Assembly: GCF_019048865.1 (NCBI RefSeq)
Contig: NZ_CP077604.1
Location: 2,666,001 to 2,730,000, forward strand
Direction of reading: 5' to 3'
DNA: 64,000 nucleotides
Source: Aquihabitans sp. G128
GTDB lineage: Bacteria; Actinomycetota; Acidimicrobiia; Acidimicrobiales; Iamiaceae
The position numbers and the translations under genes were made by a program. Below are positions 5,094 to 52,589 of this stretch, in pieces. Numbering within the stretch: the first letter of the stretch is position 1; each line of letters starts with the position of its first letter. The notes under the pieces are model-generated. The model searched no databases. It was not told the origin of the DNA and saw only the letters and a list, made by a program, of their open reading frames with translations.

Positions 5094-6686
5094 CTACACG
5101 AAGACGGTTCGGTGGGCCTGGGCGGGGTCGGTGGCGGGGAAGTCGTCGCGGGTGTGGGCGCCGCGGCTCTCCTCGCGGCGGCGGGCGGCGTCGACCACGG
5201 CCCGGCCGACGGTGGCGAGGTTGCGCAGCTCGTAGTCGGCCACCGTGTCGGCCCGGGGCGCGGCCAGGGCGGCGGCGACCACCACGGCGGCGGCGTCGAG
5301 GCGGGCGGCGTCGCGCAGGACGCCGGCGTTGTCGGTGAGCTCGCGCTGCAGGACGAGGCGGGCCTTGGCGGGGTCCTCGGGCAGCAGCGACGGGTCGGCC
5401 TCGACCGGGTCGAGGTGCACGAAGCGCCCGCCGATCACGCCGGCCGGCACGGTGTCGGGGCGGTCGGGGTCCATCCCGAGGACGGTGCGCATGGCGCCCG
5501 AGGCCTCGGGGCCCGACACCCCGGCCTCGATGGCCTCCACGGCCCGGGGGCCGAAGACCATGCCCTCGAGCAACGAGTTGGAGGCGAGCCGGTTGGCGCC
5601 GTGAACGCCGGAGCACGAGGCCTCGCCGGCGGCCCAGAGGCCGGGCAGCGACGACGCGCCCTGGAGGTCGGTCACGATGCCGCCACAGGTGTAGTGGGCG
5701 GCCGGGGCCACCGGCAGCCAGTCCTTGGCCGGGTCGAGGCCGGCGCGGGTGAGCTCGGCGGCGATGTTCGGGAACCGCTGGTCGAAGTCCTCCAGGCCGG
5801 TGGCGTCGAGGAACACGTGGTCGGTGCCCAGCTCCTGCATGCGCCAGGTCTCGGCGCGGGAGACGACGTCGCGGGGCTGGAGCTCGTCGACGAAGCGCTC
5901 GCCGTTGGTGTCGCGCAGCAGGGCGCCGTGGCCGCGCAGGGCCTCGGTCAGCAGGGGCCGCGGCATGGAGTCGACCGACAGGGCGGTGGGGTGGAACTGG
6001 ATGAACTCGATGTCGGCGACCGCCACCCCGGCGCGCAGGGCCATGGCGATGCCGTCGCCGGTGGCCTCCAGCGGGTTGGTGGTGACGGCGTAGAGCTGGC
6101 CGGCGCCGCCGGTGGTGACGAGCACGTTGCGGGCCCGCACCTCCTGGATGGTGCCGTCGGGGAAGAGGGCGGTGACGCCCCGGCAGCGGCCGGCCTCGAC
6201 GATCAGCTCCAGCGCGAAGGCGTGCTCGTGGAGGGCGGCGGCGGTGAGCTGCACGGCCTCGACCAGCGCCCGCTCGACCTCGGCCCCGGTGGCCGAGCCG
6301 CCGGCGTGGACGATGCGGGCCAGGGTGTGGCCGCCCTCGCGCGCCAGCTCCAGCTCGCCGCGGCTGTCGCGGTCGAAGATCGCCCCGAGGGTGATGAGGT
6401 CGTTGACCCGGGCCGGGCCCTCGTCGACGAGCACCCGCACGGCCTCGGCGTCGCACAGGCCGGCGCCGGCCTTGAGGGTGTCGGCCAGGTGGAGGTCGGT
6501 GGAGTCCGGGTCGCCGCCGAGCACGGCGGCGACGCCGCCCTGGGCCCAGCGGGTGGTGGCCTGGGGCAGCTCGCCCTTGGTGAGCACGCCCACCCGCATC
6601 TTGTGGGTGTCGGCGGCCCGCACGGCGGCGGAGAGCCCCGCCACCCCGGACCCGAGGACCAGGAGGTCCAGTTCGGCATCGACCAT
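5094..6686 (-). CDS. nadB: L-aspartate oxidase
   Basis: A FAD enzyme that oxidises L-aspartate to iminoaspartate, the first step of de novo NAD synthesis. The Rossmann FAD motif VLGSGVAGLSAAVRA sits at residues 8-22. Succinate-dehydrogenase-type features follow: RWAQGGVAAVLGGDPDS, HTLARIVHAGGSATGAEVERALVEA, EFIQFHPTAL and HYTCGGIVTDLQG near the active site. The C-terminal helical domain ends near 530 aa, the normal length. The start is the ATG before VDAELDLLVLGSG; longer upstream readings lack family sequence. It follows panD with a 61-bp gap. Confidence 0.94.
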   Translation of the reverse strand: MVDAELDLLVLGSGVAGLSAAVRAADTHKMRVGVLTKGELPQATTRWAQGGVAAVLGGDPDSTDLHLADTLKAGAGLCDAEAVRVLVDEGPARVNDLITLGAIFDRDSRGELELAREGGHTLARIVHAGGSATGAEVERALVEAVQLTAAALHEHAFALELIVEAGRCRGVTALFPDGTIQEVRARNVLVTTGGAGQLYAVTTNPLEATGDGIAMALRAGVAVADIEFIQFHPTALSVDSMPRPLLTEALRGHGALLRDTNGERFVDELQPRDVVSRAETWRMQELGTDHVFLDATGLEDFDQRFPNIAAELTRAGLDPAKDWLPVAPAAHYTCGGIVTDLQGASSLPGLWAAGEASCSGVHGANRLASNSLLEGMVFGPRAVEAIEAGVSGPEASGAMRTVLGMDPDRPDTVPAGVIGGRFVHLDPVEADPSLLPEDPAKARLVLQRELTDNAGVLRDAARLDAAAVVVAAALAAPRADTVADYELRNLATVGRAVVDAARRREESRGAHTRDDFPATDPAQAHRTVFV

Positions 6687-6747
6687 CTGGTCAGTCTGGC
6701 CCGTCGCTCCCCCACCCCGTCGAACCGGACACCCGTGGGCGATCGGC

Positions 6748-7173
6748 TCAGCGGATGGCGTCGACCTCGACGTAGCGGCGCGGCGCCGGCGTGTGCAGCG
6801 CGGCGAGCGCGGTGGCGGTTGCCTCGTCGACGATGGCGTTGGCCGTGTCGACGTGCACGATGCGCGGCTCGTAGGTGGCCAGCTCGGCCTGCTCGTAGTC
6901 GGCGTAACTGATGAGGATGACCTTGTCTCCGGGCGACACGAGGCGGGCCGCCGCACCGTTGAGGCAGACGTCGCCGGTGCCGCGCGGCCCCTCGATGACG
7001 TAGGTCTCGAGGCGGGCGCCGTTGTCGATGTCGACCACCGCCACCTGCTCGAACTCCACCAGGTCGGCGGCGTCCATCAGGTCCCGGTCGACCGTGACCG
7101 AGCCCACGTAGTGCAGGTTCGCATCGGTCACCGTGGCGCGGTGGATCTTGGACTTCATCATCCGTCGGCGCAT
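6748..7173 (-). CDS. panD: Aspartate 1-decarboxylase
   Basis: Makes beta-alanine from aspartate for pantothenate synthesis. The proenzyme self-cleaves at Gly-Ser to form a pyruvoyl cofactor; here the site is in [10 protein letters not shown] (about residues 21-30). The conserved start (M...[16 protein letters not shown]), [20 protein letters not shown] and the final EPRIVHVD all match. Length is 141 aa. The ATG at 7173 has GGACG upstream and aligns with the usual N-terminus. panC lies about 100 bp upstream on the same strand. Confidence 0.95.
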
Positions 7174-15613: not shown

Positions 15614-18226
15614 ATGGAGCAGGTGCCGGGCAACACCGAGAGCGACGGCACGCCGATCCCCCTCGGCGGCTGGGAGCAGGTGTTCGCGCGGTCCCCCATC
15701 CCGATGGGCGTGGCCCAGGGCTTCCGGTGGGTCCGGGTCAACGAGGCGCTCGCCGAGCTGATCGGCCTGCCGGCGTCGGAGATCGTCGGCCACGACTCCC
15801 GCCGGTTCCTGGGTGCCGACATCCTCGACGGGATCGCCCAGGCGATGGTGGCGGCCGCCGAGGGGGCCCGCCGCCTGCACCTCGAGGGCACGGTCGTCAC
15901 GGGCGACGGCACTGAGCGGTGGGCGTCGATCGACGCCGTGATCATCTTCGGCACCGCCACCGACGGCGACGTCGACGCCGTCACCGCCGTGGTGCAGGCC
16001 ACCGACCTCACCGACCTCCACGCCGCCCGCGAGTCGGTGGCCGCTTCCGAGCGGCGCTACCGCAGCCTGCTCGCCAACATCAGCGACACCGTCTCGCTCA
16101 CCGATGCCGACGGCAACCTCCTGTTCTCCACCGGCCGGCAGAACCGGGCGCTCGGCTACACGGCGGCGCACTGGGAGGACCTGCACCCGCTGTCGCTGAT
16201 CCACCCGGACGACCTCGAGCGGGCGACGGCCGCGTGGCAAGCCGGCCTCGAGCGACCGGGGGTCGAGCTGGGCGAAGAGGTGCGCATGCGAGGCGCCAAC
16301 GGCTCGTGGGTCGACGTCGTGGTGACCGGCGTGAACCTCCTGCACGATCCCGACGTCGGCGGGATGGTCATCACCACGCGCAACATCACCGCGCTGCGGC
16401 GGGCCGAGCGGCTGGCGTCGAGCCAGGCGGCGGTGCTCGAGCTCATCGCCCGGGCGGCGCCGTTGGCCGACGTGCTCGATCGCTGCGTGGAGCTGGTGGA
16501 GGAGAACGGCATCGGCGGCCAGTCCTCGATCTACCTGCTCGACCAGGATCGGCTGGTCATGCGGGCCGGGCGGGCGCCGGAGGTGCTCAACGCCTTCATG
16601 GCCCCGCCGCCGAGGACCCCGCCGCGCTGCCTGTGCGACGTCGCCATCGCCTCCGGCGCCGCGGCCTACCTGCCGGACCTCGACCACCACCACGGGCACG
16701 GCGAGAGCCTCGATGAGCTGCTGGAGCTGGGCCACCAGCTCGGCGTCGGCGCCGCGTGGAGCCAGCCCATCGTCTCCATCGGCACCGGCGAGCCGGTGGG
16801 CACGCTCTCCACCACCTACGAGCGCCCCCACGTCCCCGACCGCCACGAGCAGCGGGTGGGCGAGCTGGCGTCGAGCCTGGTGGCCATCGCCCTGGAGCGG
16901 GTGGAGAGCGAGGCCCGGCTGGCCCACCAGGCGCTCCACGACGCCCTCACCGGGCTGCCCAACCGGACGCTGCTGCTCGACCGCCTCGACCACGCGCTGG
17001 CCCGGCGGGACCGCCACGACGAGGGCCTGGCCCTGCTCTTCTGCGACCTCGACCGGTTCAAGGTCGTGAACGACAGCCTGGGCCACGGCGTGGGCGACCA
17101 GCTGCTCGTGGCCTTCGCCGATCGCCTCCGGGCCACCCTGGCGGTCGGCGACACCGTGGCCCGCTTCGGCGGCGACGAGTTCGTGGTCCTGCTCGAAGGC
17201 GTCGAGGACCGCGCCGAGGCGACCGAGGTGGCGGCCCAGGTCGCCGCCTCACTGGAGCAGCCCTTCGTCCTGCCCGGCGGCCAGGAGGTGTACCTCACCG
17301 TCAGCATCGGCCTCGCCCACGCCGGCAGCCACGAGGGCGGCGACGCGTGGCTGCGCGACGCCGACGCCGCCATGTACCGGGCGAAGGAGCGGGGCCGGAA
17401 CCGCATCGAGCGGTTCGACACCGACATGCGCGAAGCGGCCACCAAGCGCCTCCAGGTCGAGACCGACCTGCGCCGAGCCGTCCCGCTGGACCAGCTCGCC
17501 GTGCACTACCAGCCGGTGGTCGACCTCGGCTCGGGTCGCATCGTCGGCGCCGAGGCCCTCGTGCGCTGGCACCACCCCGAGCGCGGGCTGCTGGCGCCCG
17601 ACGACTTCATCGCCATCGCCGAGGAGACCGGTGCCATCGAGGCGCTCGGCCGCCACGTCCTCGATCGCTCCATCGGCGACCTGAGCGGCGTCCTCCGACG
17701 CCTCGGCCCTCGGCCGTTCCAGCTCGGCGTGAACGTGTCGGCCCGCCAGCTCAGCGGCCCCGGCCTCGACCTCGTGGTGCAGGAGCTGTGCATGCGTCAC
17801 GGCTGGGACCCCCACGACCTGCTCCTGGAGATCACCGAGTCGGCCCTCACGGTCGGCATCAACGGGCCGGTGGACCTGCTCGACCGGATCACCGCGCTCG
17901 GCGTCGAGGTCGCGCTCGACGACTTCGGCACCGGCCACTCGTCGCTCACCCGCCTCGGCCGCATGCCGGTGGGCCAGATCAAGATCGACCGCAGCTTCGT
18001 GGCGGCCATCGACCACGCCGGCGGGCGCCTGGTGAAGATCGTCGACGCCGTGGTCGCCATGGCCCGGGCGCTCGACCTGCGCATCTCCGCCGAGGGCATC
18101 GAGAGCCAGGAGCAGCTCGACCACCTGCGCCGGGCCGGCTGCGAGCTGGCCCAGGGCTACCTCTTCGCCAAGCCGCTCCCGCTCGACGAGTTCGAGCAGC
18201 TCCTGGCCGCCGACCCCCGCTGGTAG
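15614..18226 (+). CDS. PAS-PAS-GAF-GGDEF-EAL c-di-GMP enzyme
   Basis: An 870-aa cytosolic protein (no membrane segments) predicted to make and/or degrade cyclic di-GMP. Domains in order: PAS (about 20-135, FARSPIPMGVAQGFRWVRVNEAL), PAS/PAC (145-270), GAF (275-430), GGDEF (435-600) with the active-site signature FGGDEFVVLLEG intact near 517, and EAL (610-860) with GAEALVRW, LEITESAL, DDFGTGHSSL and AEGIES, so phosphodiesterase residues also look intact. The inhibitory RxxD site is not obvious. Start ATG 15614 with GAGAGG ahead. Divergent from sigR, so it could respond to the same stress (inference). One of three c-di-GMP proteins in this window. Confidence 0.93.
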   Translation: MEQVPGNTESDGTPIPLGGWEQVFARSPIPMGVAQGFRWVRVNEALAELIGLPASEIVGHDSRRFLGADILDGIAQAMVAAAEGARRLHLEGTVVTGDGTERWASIDAVIIFGTATDGDVDAVTAVVQATDLTDLHAARESVAASERRYRSLLANISDTVSLTDADGNLLFSTGRQNRALGYTAAHWEDLHPLSLIHPDDLERATAAWQAGLERPGVELGEEVRMRGANGSWVDVVVTGVNLLHDPDVGGMVITTRNITALRRAERLASSQAAVLELIARAAPLADVLDRCVELVEENGIGGQSSIYLLDQDRLVMRAGRAPEVLNAFMAPPPRTPPRCLCDVAIASGAAAYLPDLDHHHGHGESLDELLELGHQLGVGAAWSQPIVSIGTGEPVGTLSTTYERPHVPDRHEQRVGELASSLVAIALERVESEARLAHQALHDALTGLPNRTLLLDRLDHALARRDRHDEGLALLFCDLDRFKVVNDSLGHGVGDQLLVAFADRLRATLAVGDTVARFGGDEFVVLLEGVEDRAEATEVAAQVAASLEQPFVLPGGQEVYLTVSIGLAHAGSHEGGDAWLRDADAAMYRAKERGRNRIERFDTDMREAATKRLQVETDLRRAVPLDQLAVHYQPVVDLGSGRIVGAEALVRWHHPERGLLAPDDFIAIAEETGAIEALGRHVLDRSIGDLSGVLRRLGPRPFQLGVNVSARQLSGPGLDLVVQELCMRHGWDPHDLLLEITESALTVGINGPVDLLDRITALGVEVALDDFGTGHSSLTRLGRMPVGQIKIDRSFVAAIDHAGGRLVKIVDAVVAMARALDLRISAEGIESQEQLDHLRRAGCELAQGYLFAKPLPLDEFEQLLAADPRW

Positions 18227-37441: not shown

Positions 37442-39829
37442 ATGCCCACTCGCACCGAGCACCGATCCGCCGCGATCGCCGCCACCGTCGTGGCGGTCTT
37501 CGCCGCGCTCATCTTCGCCAAGGTGCCGTCGGCCCGGGCGGCGGTGCTGCTCTCGAACGTGGGCCAGTGCCTGGCTCCCGCCCTCGCGGCGGCGGCCGGC
37601 GTCCGCGCCTCGACCCGGGCGACGACCGTGCGCCTGCGCCGCGGCTGGCTCCTGCTCGGCGCCTCGGCGGCGTCCTGGTCGCTCGGCCAGGTCGTGTGGA
37701 CCTACTACGAGGTGAGCGGAGCCGCCGCCCCGTTCCCGTCGCTCGCCGACGTGGGCTACCTGGCCGCGGTGCCCCTGGCCATGCTGTCGGTCGGGTTGCT
37801 CGCTGCCTCTCCCACCCGCTCGGCCCGCCTCGTGGCGGGGCTCGACGGGCTGCTGCTCGCCGGGTCGCTCCTGGCCATCAGCTGGCCGCTGGTGCTGGGC
37901 CCGAGCTGGGACGCCGGCGGCGACGACCCGCTCACCTTCGCCCTCAGCCTGGCGTACCCGGTGGGCACGCTGGTGGTGGCCTCCACCGTGCTGCTGGCCC
38001 TCATGCGCGCCGGCGGGCGGGGCTCGGTGCCCCTGGGGCGCATCGCCGCCGGCCTGCTGGTCCTGGCCGGGGCCGACAGCATCTTCGTCTGGTCGACCCT
38101 CAAGGGGACCGAGCAGCAGATCTCGCCGTCCGACGTCGGCTGGGTGGGCGGCTACGTCTGCATCCTCCTGGCCGCGCTGGCGTTCCCGACGTCGAAGGCC
38201 GACCACGAGGAGCAACCCCAGGTGCAGGAGCGAGCGGCGGAGGCGCCTTCGCTCTACCGCGCCCTTCTGCCCCTCGGCACCGCCGGGTTGGCCCTCGGCG
38301 TCCGGGTGGTGCTGCTCGTGGCCGGCCACCACGACGATCCGTTCCTCGACGGCGTGAGCGTGGCGGTGGTGGCCCTCGTGCTGGCCCGCCACCTCGTGAC
38401 CATGCGGGAGAACCAGGACCTCACCCGCTCGCTGGAGGAGAAGATCCACCAGCTCACCGCTCGCGAGGAGCAGCTCAGCCACCAGGCCTTCCACGACCCG
38501 CTCACCGGCCTGGCCAACCGCCGGCTCTTCGGCGACCGCGTCGACCACGCCCTCGCTCGCAGCCGCCGGACCGACGAGCGCACGGCGGTGCTCTTCATCG
38601 ACCTCGACGACTTCAAGGTCGTCAACGACAGCCTCGGCCACGCCGCCGGCGACCGCCTGCTGGTGGCCGTCGGCTCCCGCATCAGCGGCTGCGTCCGGCC
38701 CGGCGACACGGTGTCGCGGCTCGGCGGCGACGAGTTCGGCGTCCTGCTGGAGGAGCTCGAGACGCTCGACCGGGCGGTGACGGTGGCCAACCGGATCCTG
38801 GAGGCCCTCGAGGTCCCGTTCCCGGTGGACGGCCGCCAGGTGTTCACCCGGGCGAGCATCGGCCTGGCCCTCGCCGAGCAGGGTGACCGGCCCGACGGCG
38901 ACCACCTGCTCGCCGACGCCGACGCCGCCCTCTACGCCGCCAAGGCCGCCGGCAAGGCGACGTTCCGCCGGTTCGAGACCGAGATGCGCTCGACGGCCAT
39001 GGCCCGCCTGGAGCTGGGCCAGGACCTGCGCCGCGCCGTGCAGGAGGAGCAGTTCCTCTGCCACTACCAGCCCATCGTCGACCTGGTGAGCGGGCGGGTG
39101 GTGGCCATGGAGGCGCTGGTGCGCTGGGACCACCCGGAGCGGGGCCTGCTCAGCCCGGACACGTTCATCCCCCTCGCCGAGGCCACCGGCGGCATAAACG
39201 CCATCGGCGCCCACGTGCTGCGGACGGCCACCGGGCACGCCGCCGCGTGGCGCCGATCCGGTGCGGCCAAGCCGGACCTGGAGCTGCACGTGAACCTCTC
39301 GGGCCGGCAGCTCGAGGAGGCCGACCTGGTGGCCCAGGTCCGGCGCGAGCTCGAGCGCTCCGGCTTCCCGCCGGACCTGCTGGTGCTCGAGATCACCGAG
39401 AGCGTGGCGGTCGACGTCGGCGCCCGCCACCTGGAGCGCCTCGTGGGCTTGCAGCAGCTGGGCGTGCGGCTGGCCATCGACGACTTCGGCACCGGCTACT
39501 CGTCGCTCAACTACCTGCGCACGCTGCCCGTCGAGGTGCTGAAGATCGATCGGGCCTTCGCCCAGACCATCGACGGTGCGACCGACCCGGTGCTGCTCGA
39601 GGCGATCGTGCAGCTGGGCCACTCGCTCGGGATCGACGTGGTGGCCGAGGGCATCGAGCGCGAGGACCAGGCCGCCACGCTGCGGCGCATGGGCTGCCGC
39701 CGGGCCCAGGGCTACCTGTTCCGGGCGCCCGTCCCGGCAGCCGAGGTGCCGGCGCTGCTGGCGTCGGGCTCGCTGCTGCCGCCGCCGGCGTCGTCAGGTG
39801 GGGCGAACCAGGTGGTCACGCGGCCGTAA
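37442..39829 (+). CDS. Membrane-bound GGDEF-EAL c-di-GMP protein
   Basis: A 795-aa protein. The N-terminal about 330 residues form about eight to ten TM helices (a MASE-like sensor, no family assigned). A short coiled coil (ENQDLTRSLEEKIHQLTAREEQLSHQ) leads into GGDEF with RLGGDEFGVLLEE intact near 427. EAL follows with AMEALVRW (about 555), LEITESVAV, DDFGTGYSSLNYL and AEGIERE. Both activities are possible. Upstream is a GGGGCC/GGCCCC hairpin (about 37349-37364). I looked for a c-di-GMP (GEMM) riboswitch before it and saw none. Confidence 0.93.
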   Translation: MPTRTEHRSAAIAATVVAVFAALIFAKVPSARAAVLLSNVGQCLAPALAAAAGVRASTRATTVRLRRGWLLLGASAASWSLGQVVWTYYEVSGAAAPFPSLADVGYLAAVPLAMLSVGLLAASPTRSARLVAGLDGLLLAGSLLAISWPLVLGPSWDAGGDDPLTFALSLAYPVGTLVVASTVLLALMRAGGRGSVPLGRIAAGLLVLAGADSIFVWSTLKGTEQQISPSDVGWVGGYVCILLAALAFPTSKADHEEQPQVQERAAEAPSLYRALLPLGTAGLALGVRVVLLVAGHHDDPFLDGVSVAVVALVLARHLVTMRENQDLTRSLEEKIHQLTAREEQLSHQAFHDPLTGLANRRLFGDRVDHALARSRRTDERTAVLFIDLDDFKVVNDSLGHAAGDRLLVAVGSRISGCVRPGDTVSRLGGDEFGVLLEELETLDRAVTVANRILEALEVPFPVDGRQVFTRASIGLALAEQGDRPDGDHLLADADAALYAAKAAGKATFRRFETEMRSTAMARLELGQDLRRAVQEEQFLCHYQPIVDLVSGRVVAMEALVRWDHPERGLLSPDTFIPLAEATGGINAIGAHVLRTATGHAAAWRRSGAAKPDLELHVNLSGRQLEEADLVAQVRRELERSGFPPDLLVLEITESVAVDVGARHLERLVGLQQLGVRLAIDDFGTGYSSLNYLRTLPVEVLKIDRAFAQTIDGATDPVLLEAIVQLGHSLGIDVVAEGIEREDQAATLRRMGCRRAQGYLFRAPVPAAEVPALLASGSLLPPPASSGGANQVVTRP

Positions 39830-43137: not shown

Positions 43138-43837
<700 letters not shown>

Positions 43838-47359: not shown

Positions 47360-48388
47360 ATGGAGTCGGCTGGAGCGCACGGGTTTCCCCGGATCTGTGG
47401 TGAGCTCGAGTTGCCGCTCGTGCTCGTCGATCTGTCGACGTTGCACGTGCTGGCCGCGAGCCGCGTGGTCCTGAGGAGGCTCGACCTGACGCCCGAGGAG
47501 GTGCTCGGCCGTCCGGTGCTGGACCTGCTGCTCCCCGAGGACCAGCCGAAGGCGATGGCGGCCCTCCAAGCGCTCGCCGCAGGAGTCGTCGACTTCTACC
47601 GGGTCCACCGCCCGATCCCGGCCGCACCGGGCACCGAAGGCCTCGGGACGCAGTGGGTCCGCGCGGTCAGCTTGGACGGCACGCGGCAGGCCCTGATCGA
47701 GTTCGGCGACGGGTCGGCTCCGGAACCGAGTCCGTTGAACCGGTTCCTCGGTCAGGAACCGGTGCGGATGGCGATCGGGCTCGTCGGACCGGACTGGGTG
47801 GTCCGGTCGATCAGTGCCGACATCTCCGACATCATGGGTCTCGCTCCCGAGGACATGGTGGGGCGCCGCCTGATCGGCGCCGTCAGCGAGCCCGACGTCC
47901 AGCACCTCCTCGAAGCAGCGCAGAGGTCCGGGACCGACGATTCGGTCGCCCTGCGCATCGAGGTGCGCAACGGATCCGGCGACTGGCAGCTCGTGTGTTG
48001 CGCGCTGTCCTCGATCGCCGGCGAGGCCGGCCGGTTGTTCATCTTGATGCCCGAGCCTGCCCTCGCCCTGCGACCGGGACCCGGCGCAGACGAGGTCGAC
48101 GCGCACCTCCAGGTGATCGCCTCCGAGTTCGGTGCCAGCGGACTGCTGGAGCGCATGGGGGTCACCCCGGAGCTGGTGCCGCTGCCCGAGATGGCGAGGC
48201 TCACGTCCCGCCAGTGGCAGGTCTTGAGCCGGCTCCTGGTCGGAGACCGGGTGCCCGAGATCGCCTCGGACCTCTTCATCAGCCAGAGCACGGTGCGCAA
48301 CCACCTCCACGCGATCTACGAGCGGTTCGGCGTGCACTCCCAGGCGGAGGTCATCAACCTGGTCCGCAAGCGCTCGGCCCCGGCGTAG
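47360..48388 (+). CDS. PAS-PAS-LuxR transcriptional regulator
   Basis: A 342-aa cytosolic regulator. Two PAS-like regions (about 15-120, LPLVLVDLSTLHVLAASRV; and about 130-240, GLVGPDWVVRSISADISDIMGLAPEDMVG) precede a LuxR-type HTH at the C-terminus (about 280-335, ARLTSRQWQVLSRLLVGDRVPEIASDLFISQSTVRNHLHAIYERFGVHSQAEVI). No phospho-acceptor domain. Just upstream of the EAL-kinase fusion, so the two probably belong to one signalling pathway. Codon use is visibly less GC-biased than in the preceding block. Confidence 0.88.
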   Translation: MESAGAHGFPRICGELELPLVLVDLSTLHVLAASRVVLRRLDLTPEEVLGRPVLDLLLPEDQPKAMAALQALAAGVVDFYRVHRPIPAAPGTEGLGTQWVRAVSLDGTRQALIEFGDGSAPEPSPLNRFLGQEPVRMAIGLVGPDWVVRSISADISDIMGLAPEDMVGRRLIGAVSEPDVQHLLEAAQRSGTDDSVALRIEVRNGSGDWQLVCCALSSIAGEAGRLFILMPEPALALRPGPGADEVDAHLQVIASEFGASGLLERMGVTPELVPLPEMARLTSRQWQVLSRLLVGDRVPEIASDLFISQSTVRNHLHAIYERFGVHSQAEVINLVRKRSAPA

Positions 48389-48458: not shown

Positions 48459-50739
48459 ATGGTTGCTGCAGCCGACGATCGACCGGCCCTCCGGGGCGAC
48501 GGGCTGGTCCCGCTCCTCGGTGCGCTCGGCCGCGGCGATGGTTGGGCCGGCGAGGTGACCTTCGTCGGTGCTGGTGGGATCCGGGTGCCTGCGACGATCA
48601 CCGCAGCTCCGATCGAGGCGAGCGAGCGGCACCGAGGGCAGCGGCCATCGCCCGGTCCTGCCGGACCCACGGAGGGCGACGGATCGAACCACGGACTGGT
48701 CCCCCGCCAGGTGTTCTTCGACGCCGTGGACGACGCGGTCGCCGCAGCGCCTGCGGTGCTCGGGGTCCGCAGCATCATCCTGCTGGAGATCTCCTCGTTC
48801 GACCTGGTGAACGAGGCGTTCGGCCCCGAGGTCGGAGAGGGGGTCATCCAGTGCTGCGCCGACCAGCTCGTCGACAGCACGCACCCCGGCGACCTGGTGG
48901 CCCAGATGTCCGACCACACGTTCGCGGTGTGGTGCCCTCATGCGCCCGGAGCGGCCGACGCCCAGACCGCTGCCGACCACCTCCGGAGGTGCCTCAGCCG
49001 GCCGAGCGGTCTCCGCCACGTCGGCGGGGCCCTGCAGGTGTCGGCCGGTGTGGCGGTGGCGACCGCCGAGGTCCACAGCGCCGCTGACCTGCTGCAGCGG
49101 AGCCGCACCGCCCTGTTCGAAGCACGATCCGAGTGCACGACCAAGCTGTACGAGGCGGCCATGCGCGACGTGCTCATGCGCCGGGTCGAGCTCGAAGCCA
49201 TCGCGTCCGCCGTGATCGACCGGGGAGCCGTCGAGCTGGCCTACCAGCCGATCGTGCGCCTCGTCGACCAGCGGACCGTGGGGGCCGAAGCCCTCCTGCG
49301 CGTCACCGACAGCTCCGGGTCGCCCGTCCCCCCCCGGCGAGCTCATCGAAGCAGCCGAGCAGAGCGGCCAGATCGACGAGCTCGGCGACCTCATCCTGCA
49401 GACGGCCTGCGCCGCCGCAGCGCATTGGCGCGACCAGTTGCCGGATCTCCCGATCCAGCTCGCGGTCAACGTGTCGGGCCGGCAGCTCGACGACCCGACG
49501 CTTCCGAGCCGGGTGGCCGCCGCCCTCGATGCGTCCGGGCTCGATGCGGCCTCGCTCTGGCTGGAGATCACCGAGAGCGTGCTCATGCGCAACCCGACCA
49601 GATCGACGGCGCTGCTCGCCGAGCTCAAGGCTCGAGGGGTCCGTCTCGCCGCAGACGACTTCGGGACCGGCTACAGCTCGCTCGCCTACCTCAAGACCTT
49701 CCCGCTCGACGCGCTCAAGATCGACCGCTCCTTCGTGTCCGCCATGCCGACCGGTCCGCAGGAGGTCGCCATCACCCGCGCGGTCATCGCCGTCGCCGAC
49801 GCGCTCGGCCTCGAGGTCATCGCCGAAGGCATCGAGCGCGGCGACCAGCGGGACTGCGTCACAGCACTGGGTGCTGCACTGGGGCAGGGCTACCTGTGGA
49901 GCCCCGCCGTGACTGCAGACGCGTTCGCAGCCCGCCTCTCGGCCGAGGACGACGGTGCCTCGGTCTGGTCCGAGCCAGAGCCGACCTCGTCTGGCACCCG
50001 GCTCGAACCCGGCCCTGGGAGCGAAGCCTCGGCCGACGAACGTGTCGACGCCCTCCTCGAGGAGCTCGCGCACGAGATCCGCAGTCCCCTCGCCGTCGTG
50101 TCCGGCTACGCCGGGCTCATCCAGACCAGTGATCTGGCCGAGGCCCGGATCGGAGGCGCGGCGATCCAGCGCGCCGCACATCGAATCGACGCCATCGTCG
50201 GGCAGGTGACCGGTGTGGGTCGTCGCATCGGACGATCTGACCCTGCTGCTCGACAGCCGGTCGACCTCGGTGCGCTGGTGGACGGGATCGTTGCGGACTT
50301 CGGCCTCATCACCTCGGGCGAGCTCCGATGGGTCGAGCCCGCCGGGCCAGCCATCTCCGTCTCCGCCGATGCCACCCAGATCGAGCGGGCCATCACGAAC
50401 CTCATCAGCAACGCCGTGCGCTTCGGTCCCCGCGGAGCCCCCGTGGTGGTCGCGCTGCAGGCGGACAACGTCTGGGCTGACGTCGAGATCTCGGACGAAG
50501 GGCCCGGCGTGGACCCCGCCGACCTGAGCCTGCTGTTCTGCAAGTACGGCCGTGCCGATCGTGCTGGCCCCGGCTCCGGTCTCGGCCTCTACCTGGCGCG
50601 ACGGATCGCCAGAGCGCACGGGGGCGACATCCTCGTCCGTCCCCGCACCGTCGGCCGAGGCTCCACCTTCACCGTGCGCCTACCCGTGGTCGCCGACCGC
50701 GCACCGCAGGCGAGGTCTCGTCCCCCACGTTCCGGGTAG
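48459..50739 (+). CDS. Degenerate GGDEF - EAL - histidine kinase fusion (frame broken)
   Basis: About 759 aa after correction. A PAS-like fragment (about 1-50, GWAGEVTFVGAGGIRVPATI); a GGDEF-fold domain (about 75-235) whose active-site signature is replaced by MSDHTF, so no cyclase is expected; an EAL domain (about 245-490) with GAEALLRV, LEITESVL, DDFGTGYSSLAYLK and AEGIERG intact; then HisKA with ELAHEIRSPLAVVSG (His about 536) and HATPase_c with NLISNAVRFG, DEGPGVD and GSGLGLYLARRI. EAL and kinase are in one uninterrupted frame. The break is in the run of eight C at 49328-49335; dropping one restores PPGELIEAAEQSG. No TM segments. Links c-di-GMP hydrolysis or sensing to phosphotransfer in one chain. 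Confidence 0.85.
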
Positions 50740-51253: not shown

Positions 51254-51329
51254 GGGCCACTAGCTCAATTGGCAGAGCATCGGACTTTTAATCCGCCGGT
51301 TCAGGGTTCAAGTCCCTGGTGGCCCACCA
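51254..51329 (+). tRNA. tRNA-Lys(TTT), prophage integration site
   Basis: A 76-nt cloverleaf: acceptor GGGCCAC/GTGGCCC, D arm GCTCAATTGGCAGAGC, anticodon loop CTTTTAA with anticodon TTT, T arm CAGGG-TTCAAGT-CCCTG, and encoded CCA. The integrase gene starts about 110 bp downstream, so its 3' half is the probable attachment core. Confidence 0.95.
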
Positions 51330-51428
51330 ACGAAACCGCAGGTCAGAGGTCATGGGCACCACGTCCACGGCAGACCAGCACGGCTCGCGTCCCACGCCCG
51401 TCCCACGGGAACTGTCAGGGGGTGGGCG

Positions 51429-51434
51429 TAGCGT
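51429..51434 (+). promoter_or_regulatory. Leaderless -10 (TAGCGT) for integrase
   Basis: TAGCGT is 8 nt before the ATG at 51443, the same layout as host promoters. Confidence 0.5.
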
Positions 51435-51442
51435 CTCGCCGC

Positions 51443-52589
51443 ATGAAGGGGACGAAGCGCCGCCGGCCAGACCGAGGAGCCGACGCCTGGGAGCTGCGGG
51501 TGGAGCTCGGGCTGGACCCCCTCGACGGACGACGGCGGCAGCGGTCCGAGACCTTCCGGGGCACCGAGCGGCAGGCCGACACCGCGCTGGCCCAGCTGGT
51601 GGCCAAGGTGGCCGAGAATCGCCACGGCCCGGGCACCGACGCCACGCTCTCCGTGCTGCTCGACCGCTGGCTCGAGATGGTCGGCGACGACCTCTCCCCC
51701 ACCACGCTGGCCGGCTACCGCTCCACCATCAAGGTGCAGATCGCCCCGGCGCTCGGCCACCGCCCGGTGGGCTCGATCACCACGCCGGAGCTGGACAGCT
51801 TCTACCGGGCGCTCCTGGCCGGGCCTGCCGGTGGCAAGGCCCGGAAGCCGGCCACGGTGCGGCAGACCCACGCCATCCTGCGCAGGGCGTTCCGGCAGGC
51901 GGTCCGTTGGGGCTGGCTCAGCACCAACCCCGCCGTCGAGGCGACACCGCCTCGGAACCGCAAGGTGCAGCTGCGCATCCCGACGCCGGCCCAGGTGGCC
52001 GCGCTCATCACCGCGGCCGACGCCAGCGACCCCGAGCTCGGATGCCTGCTCCGGCTGGCGGTGGCCACCGGCGCGCCGGGGCGAGCTGTGCGGGCTCCGC
52101 TGGTCCCGGGTCGACCTGGCCGGGGCGGCGGTGCTCATCGACCAGGCCGTCGTCGAGGTGGCCGGCGTGGTCACGGAGAAGGACACCAAGACCCACCAGG
52201 CCCGCCGGGTAGCGATCGACGCCGGCACGGTGGCCGCCCTGAAGCGGCAGGCCCAGCGCACCGCCGAGACCGCCCTCGCTGCCGGTGCAGGCCGGGACCC
52301 GGACCCGTTCGTCTTCGCCGGCCGAACCGACGGCGGGGCCCCGCTCTCACCCGACGTGGTGACCGGCCGGTTCCGCCGGCTGGCCAAGGTCCACGCGCCC
52401 GGCACGCGCCTGCATGACCTCCGGCACTTCGCCGCCACCCAGCTCCTGGCCGCCGGCGTGCCGGTGAAGACGGTGAGCGGGCGGCTCGGGCACGGCTCGG
52501 CGGCGATGACGCTCGACGTCTACGCCCACCACATCGCGGCGGCCGACCAGGTGGCCGCCGATGTGCTCGGCGACATCCTCGGGGCCTGA
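51443..52589 (+). CDS. int: Tyrosine-recombinase integrase (frame broken)
   Basis: About 382 aa after correction. An N-terminal arm-binding domain is followed by a SAM-like core-binding domain (LSVLLDRWLEMVGDDLSPTTLAGYRSTIKVQI). The catalytic domain has Arg in ATGA(R)RGELCGLRW, Lys region TKTHQARRVAID, H-x-x-R in LHDLRHFAATQL, a second His/Lys in GRLGHGSAAM, and nucleophile Tyr in LDVYAHH. The frame breaks in GGCGCGCCGGGG near 52069-52080; restoring one GC gives the expected TGARRGEL. ATG 51443 with a leaderless -10. Confidence 0.92.

Follow-up and report, generated by a model that had tools for sequence, protein, structure and literature searches.

The usual connection between c-di-GMP and two-component signaling runs through receiver domains carried by GGDEF/EAL proteins, with the histidine kinase acting upstream. 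In SgmT of Myxococcus xanthus, by comparison, the histidine kinase uses a GGDEF domain as its c-di-GMP receptor, with a DNA-binding response regulator downstream (PMC3509222), and thus combines a kinase and a domain of the c-di-GMP-turnover type in one polypeptide, like the fusions reported here. CckA and ShkA are also histidine kinases under c-di-GMP control (PMC10333796, PMC7010744), as is RavS in the available part of its description (PMC6707612), a mode of control that we propose for the fusions. Likewise, the GGDEF-EAL modules of FimX and LapD act as c-di-GMP sensors rather than as enzymes (PMC12564702, PMC3032553), the role proposed for the module studied here. Proteins combining EAL with HisKA, HATPase, HAMP and Hpt domains have been catalogued in Caulobacterales and Rhizobiales, as far as the accessible part of that survey goes, so that the combination of EAL and histidine kinase in one polypeptide is already known (PMC9756655). 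Our search of the open-access literature brought up no report of a GGDEF-EAL input ahead of a kinase and no dedicated study of c-di-GMP in Acidimicrobiia, and structure comparison found no solved chain with both EAL and kinase.

The gene described here lies on the plus strand of the window, i.e., the whole stretch of 64,000 nucleotides that was analyzed (G000:C1:2666001-2730000, from a single contig of 4.94 Mb; estimated completeness, 92%). Pfam recovered a degenerate GGDEF domain, EAL, HisKA and HATPase_c (Table 1), in agreement with the domains and motifs quoted in an initial annotation made from the sequence. The GG(D/E)EF active site is absent from the GGDEF domain and replaced by MSDHTF, as that annotation had noticed, and the RxxD inhibitory site is absent as well, with HxxD in its place; given both replacements, neither cyclase activity nor classical product inhibition would be expected. 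The catalytic set of the EAL domain (E of EAL, N, E, DD, K, E of AEG, and Q) aligns with that of solved EAL chains and is kept in full. The kinase half has the phospho-acceptor His in its H box together with the N, G1 and G2 boxes, as expected of a sensor kinase, and Pfam detected no REC domain in the gene, which is thus not a hybrid histidine kinase. Only a faint trace (a weak match) is left of the PAS domain found at the N-terminus of relatives.

Table 1. Features of the window gene and its surroundings (window positions)
Feature	Coordinates	Strand	Evidence
PAS-PAS-LuxR regulator, without receiver domain, true start codon uncertain	47432..48388	+	Pfam; neighborhoods
N-terminal half, in frame, with a faint trace of PAS, the degenerate GGDEF and ~45 initial EAL residues	48459..49334	+	ORFs, Pfam
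GGDEF, degenerate; active site MSDHTF at 48906-48923, I-site HxxD	48696..49133	+	PF00990 1.5e-16; site table
EAL, first piece (GAEALLR)	49215..49334	+	PF00563 profile positions 8-44, 7.6e-5
C8 homopolymer, reading frame shifts by one base	49328..49335	+	Pfam frames, codon-position G+C, relatives
EAL, second piece (LEITES, DDFGTGYSS, LKID, AEGIE, GQGYLW), catalytic residues complete	49339..49905	+	PF00563 positions 49-235, 9.5e-52
EAL-kinase linker	49906..50052	+	length differs among relatives
HisKA dimerization/phospho-acceptor domain; His codon 50071-50073	50053..50208	+	PF00512 2.2e-6
HATPase_c catalytic ATP-binding domain; N, G1, G2 boxes intact	50368..50688	+	PF02518 3.7e-24

Occurrence and History of the Fusion

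Relatives were sought with the second half of the window gene (EAL to kinase) and then with a profile, A2, built from intact fusions. The genus and family hold 10 intact one-frame fusions, including two paralogues in the same genome (G000:C1:4285211-4286563 and 627638-629014). Profile A2 retrieved 18 fusion genes, the window's included, from 12 of 298 genomes in a sample of the order (Acidimicrobiia), representing six or more families (codes f1, f9, f13, f30, f37, f40). One more fusion was found elsewhere in the phylum (G544, in a sample of 396 genomes), and G022, a genome of the same family that is absent from the order's hit list, also has one. The total comes to 20 genes in 14 genomes, 19 of which, all but the window gene, read GGDEF-EAL-HisKA-HATPase_c in one frame. 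The view of the initial annotation that an EAL domain on the input side of a kinase is rare is supported: the arrangement is real, uncommon and conserved. Since the profile was itself built from fusions, retrieval is biased towards sequences that cluster together.

All nine fusions examined by Pfam have the architecture [PAS/GAF]n-GGDEF-EAL-HisKA-HATPase_c, though one lacks a PAS match, and N-terminal PAS or GAF domains are retained in most fusions. REC domains occur among the relatives at the C-terminus in L138 and at the N-terminus in ORFs of L132 and L137. In an rpoB tree, the genome bearing the window groups with Acidimicrobiia records (100/100). No fusion was detected in fifteen named genomes, nor, at E 1e-84, in 398 genomes from the phylum of the Bradyrhizobium record or 201 from that of the Chloroflexi record, both weak negatives with only 4-8 candidates scored per genome. 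Because its patterns were situated in EAL, a pattern scan of the named organisms' contigs yielded mostly EAL-only proteins. Its one long match, from Tepidiphilus (L041, 3451-7482), was rejected as a fusion and consists of two adjoining separate genes, PAS-GGDEF-EAL followed by a stand-alone histidine kinase of 270 codons, an unfused parallel to the EAL-kinase fusion. The genome bearing the window has about 26 EAL genes, and further EAL proteins are encoded in the window at ~17465-18175 (G000:C1:2683465) and ~39020-39730 (G000:C1:2705020).

In a tree with 23 unfused kinases, which are the best-matching ones sampled and come mostly from the genus, the 20 fusions group together by their kinase domains as a single clade (SH-aLRT 100, one change). 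In the EAL tree, the window EAL belongs to a clade of eight fusions and one EAL-only protein (L142); the remainder is weakly resolved. The position of L142 inside this clade suggests that its lineage lost its kinase. A single ancient fusion event would fit both trees, which do not prove it.

Likely Input and Output, and Candidate Phosphate Acceptor

The degree of conservation differs along the fusions. The H, N, G1 and G2 residues of the kinase are intact in 19 of 20, and at least 15 of the fusions retain the full EAL catalytic set. In the EAL clade of the window gene, the GGDEF domain is dead, with HxxD at the I-site, in all eight members, and the general-base Glu of AEGIE is changed to Val in three of the eight; across the whole family dead GGDEF domains are frequent, and one distant fusion has Leu for the EAL Gln. 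Because the kinase is almost never lost beside degraded GGDEF or EAL parts, it is likely the output of these proteins, and GGDEF-EAL the input. The EAL Gln and the phospho-acceptor His are 47 to 69 residues apart across relatives, in steps that are not heptads, and the linker is poorly conserved. With such variation in length, transmission through a continuous rigid signaling helix from EAL to kinase is not evident.

The adjacent PAS-PAS-LuxR gene had been put forward as a co-regulated partner, a suggestion that is not supported: it has no counterpart beside any relative examined, the synteny is not conserved, and the sole LuxR match near relatives is an ordinary REC-LuxR regulator. The phosphate acceptor had been described as missing from view, which is correct for the window copy, with no receiver or response regulator gene within 5 kb, but five relatives have an orthologous OmpR-type regulator, a candidate acceptor, next to the fusion. 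A receiver gene adjoins 11 of the 20 fusions vs. 2 of 17 EAL-only control loci drawn from three of the fusion-bearing genomes (Fisher p = 0.014). The OmpR-type regulators beside five fusions (L030, L032, L034, L140, L141) are 59-66% identical to one another, whereas they share 33-48% identity with the other OmpR-type regulators compared; four of these five loci also contain a single-domain receiver. Across 24 genomes of the family, the fusion-adjacent regulators are the top matches to the regulator of L030 by identity (at least 62%), four of them as the best full-length matches and the fifth, that of G000, at 65-72% in two frames. The exception is G008, with a regulator at 55% identity and no fusion detected. 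The G000 regulator, encoded near the paralogue at 627638 (G000:C1:624382-625030), is a candidate partner of the window kinase.

Other arrangements were observed. At L133 (2475-9691), one OmpR-type response regulator gene (6118-6903) lies between two EAL-kinase genes, one per strand. The EAL-kinase genes at L032 7035-8732 (a G000 paralogue) and L033 2499-3914 (G003) stand in convergent orientation to a diguanylate cyclase gene.

Considering the domains, catalytic residues, intact fusions, kinase clade and linked orthologous regulators observed directly, c-di-GMP gating of the kinase would be the most economical reading, and we regard it as fairly probable that Acidimicrobiia possess a family of c-di-GMP-responsive histidine kinases with the GGDEF-EAL module as input. 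c-di-GMP would bind the EAL domain and probably be hydrolyzed there in most members, the window's included, while the degenerate GGDEF domain, having presumably lost c-di-GMP synthesis, would contribute to structure or allostery at most. Binding of the ligand to the EAL dimer, or its turnover there, would then shift the kinase/phosphatase balance of HisKA-HATPase_c, and the phosphoryl group would pass to the OmpR-type response regulator, perhaps also to the single-domain receiver, encoded beside several members. The window copy would act on an unlinked regulator, such as the one at G000:C1:624382-625030. We propose more tentatively, at a little short of even chances, that these proteins may form a lineage-specific two-component class of Acidimicrobiia whose direct sensor is an EAL domain competent for catalysis. 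c-di-GMP would then be read and erased by one protein, and its level would determine how far a dedicated orthologous OmpR-type regulator is phosphorylated, the single-domain receiver being a possible phosphate sink.

Alternatively, the two enzymatic halves could be independent outputs, a PAS-borne signal controlling an active c-di-GMP phosphodiesterase as well as a histidine kinase that is not gated by c-di-GMP. Such an arrangement would account for an EAL catalytic set that, in most fusions, is complete beyond the needs of a pure binding domain, for the N-terminal PAS or GAF domains kept in most members, and for a linker that appears flexible. We nevertheless find it rather unlikely, as three close relatives without the EAL general base still have a fused kinase, the kinase is almost never degraded, and most of the PAS domain is gone from the window copy.

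The Frame Break in the Window Copy

The initial annotation had placed EAL and kinase in the same uninterrupted frame, which does not hold for the sequence as deposited, although it had flagged the C8 run (49328-49335) for resequencing: the frame switches at this run. The Pfam content of ORF A (48459-50132) ends at EAL position 44 (49334), after which this ORF is out of register with the coding sequence; the remainder of the EAL domain (positions 49-235), HisKA and HATPase_c belong to a different frame, which can be read from 49336 to 50739. The EAL fold is full-length but divided between the two frames (profile positions 8-44, then 49-235); in relatives a single piece spans nearly the whole profile. 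Codon-position G+C is 0.78/0.53/0.87 before the run and 0.75/0.54/0.85 after it in the new frame, and is scrambled if ORF A is followed further. The run is one of only two 8-base homopolymers in the window, and seven of seven close relatives lack a C run at the corresponding position.

G000 has at least five frame-split conserved genes, the window gene counted, and the three broken genes of the window lie within 10 kb of each other. Of the other two, an OmpR-type response regulator (43138-43816) has its receiver and DNA-binding Pfam halves in different frames, with a break near 43.59 kb, and a phage-type integrase is similarly divided, with a break near 52.06 kb. Elsewhere, an EAL gene (G000:C1:1742157-1742793) and the OmpR regulator beside a paralogous EAL-kinase gene (G000:C1:624382-625030) are also frame-split, which suggests that the assembly holds many indels. 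With this number of split genes, the C8 frameshift is most likely an assembly or sequencing error, a pattern that fits but is not proof. The broken OmpR-type regulator of the window is followed by what appears to be its own sensor kinase. The split tyrosine-recombinase integrase follows a tRNA-Lys (51254-51329), and the region 51254-52589 is likely the edge of an integrated element.

It is improbable that the window copy is a real pseudogene, truncated inside EAL by a genomic frameshift and with an untranslated kinase, since motifs and codon-position composition are preserved on both sides of the break, and the four or more other conserved genes split in G000 are what indel errors in a single-contig assembly would produce; the break within the C8 run agrees with it all the same, and the absent PAS and absent linked regulator fit relaxed selection. 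Being split, deprived of most of its PAS domain and without a linked response regulator, the window copy could be a decaying paralogue. A phase-variable switch, by which a one-base change in one of the two 8-base homopolymers of the window would decide kinase translation, is very unlikely, as the run is missing from the site in seven of seven close relatives, eight bases are short for such a tract, and the other frame breaks mark the assembly as error-prone.

Comparison with Known Systems

The Caulobacterales and Rhizobiales proteins differ from the fusions, in the accessible part of the survey, in belonging to an EAL-only group without GGDEF and in having HAMP and Hpt, their domain order being unstated there (PMC9756655); a search of 398 genomes of their phylum with the EAL-then-kinase profile yielded no example at E 1e-84, a weak negative. 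CckA and ShkA bind c-di-GMP through the catalytic ATP-binding domain (PMC10333796) and a pseudo-receiver (PMC7010744), respectively, and not through a fused EAL domain. SgmT carries its GGDEF domain at the C-terminus, after kinase and receiver, and has a GAF sensor, whereas in the fusions GGDEF-EAL precedes the kinase and the EAL catalytic residues are kept. FimX and LapD have no kinase output and a catalytically dead EAL domain, while the EAL residues of most fusions are intact (PMC12564702, PMC3032553).

The fusions thus reverse the usual order of the two pathways, in an arrangement that is conserved and accompanied by a linked regulator. If c-di-GMP gates the kinase, a single protein would connect the level of the second messenger with gene expression, and an enzyme would be serving as sensor, with phosphotransfer as its output.
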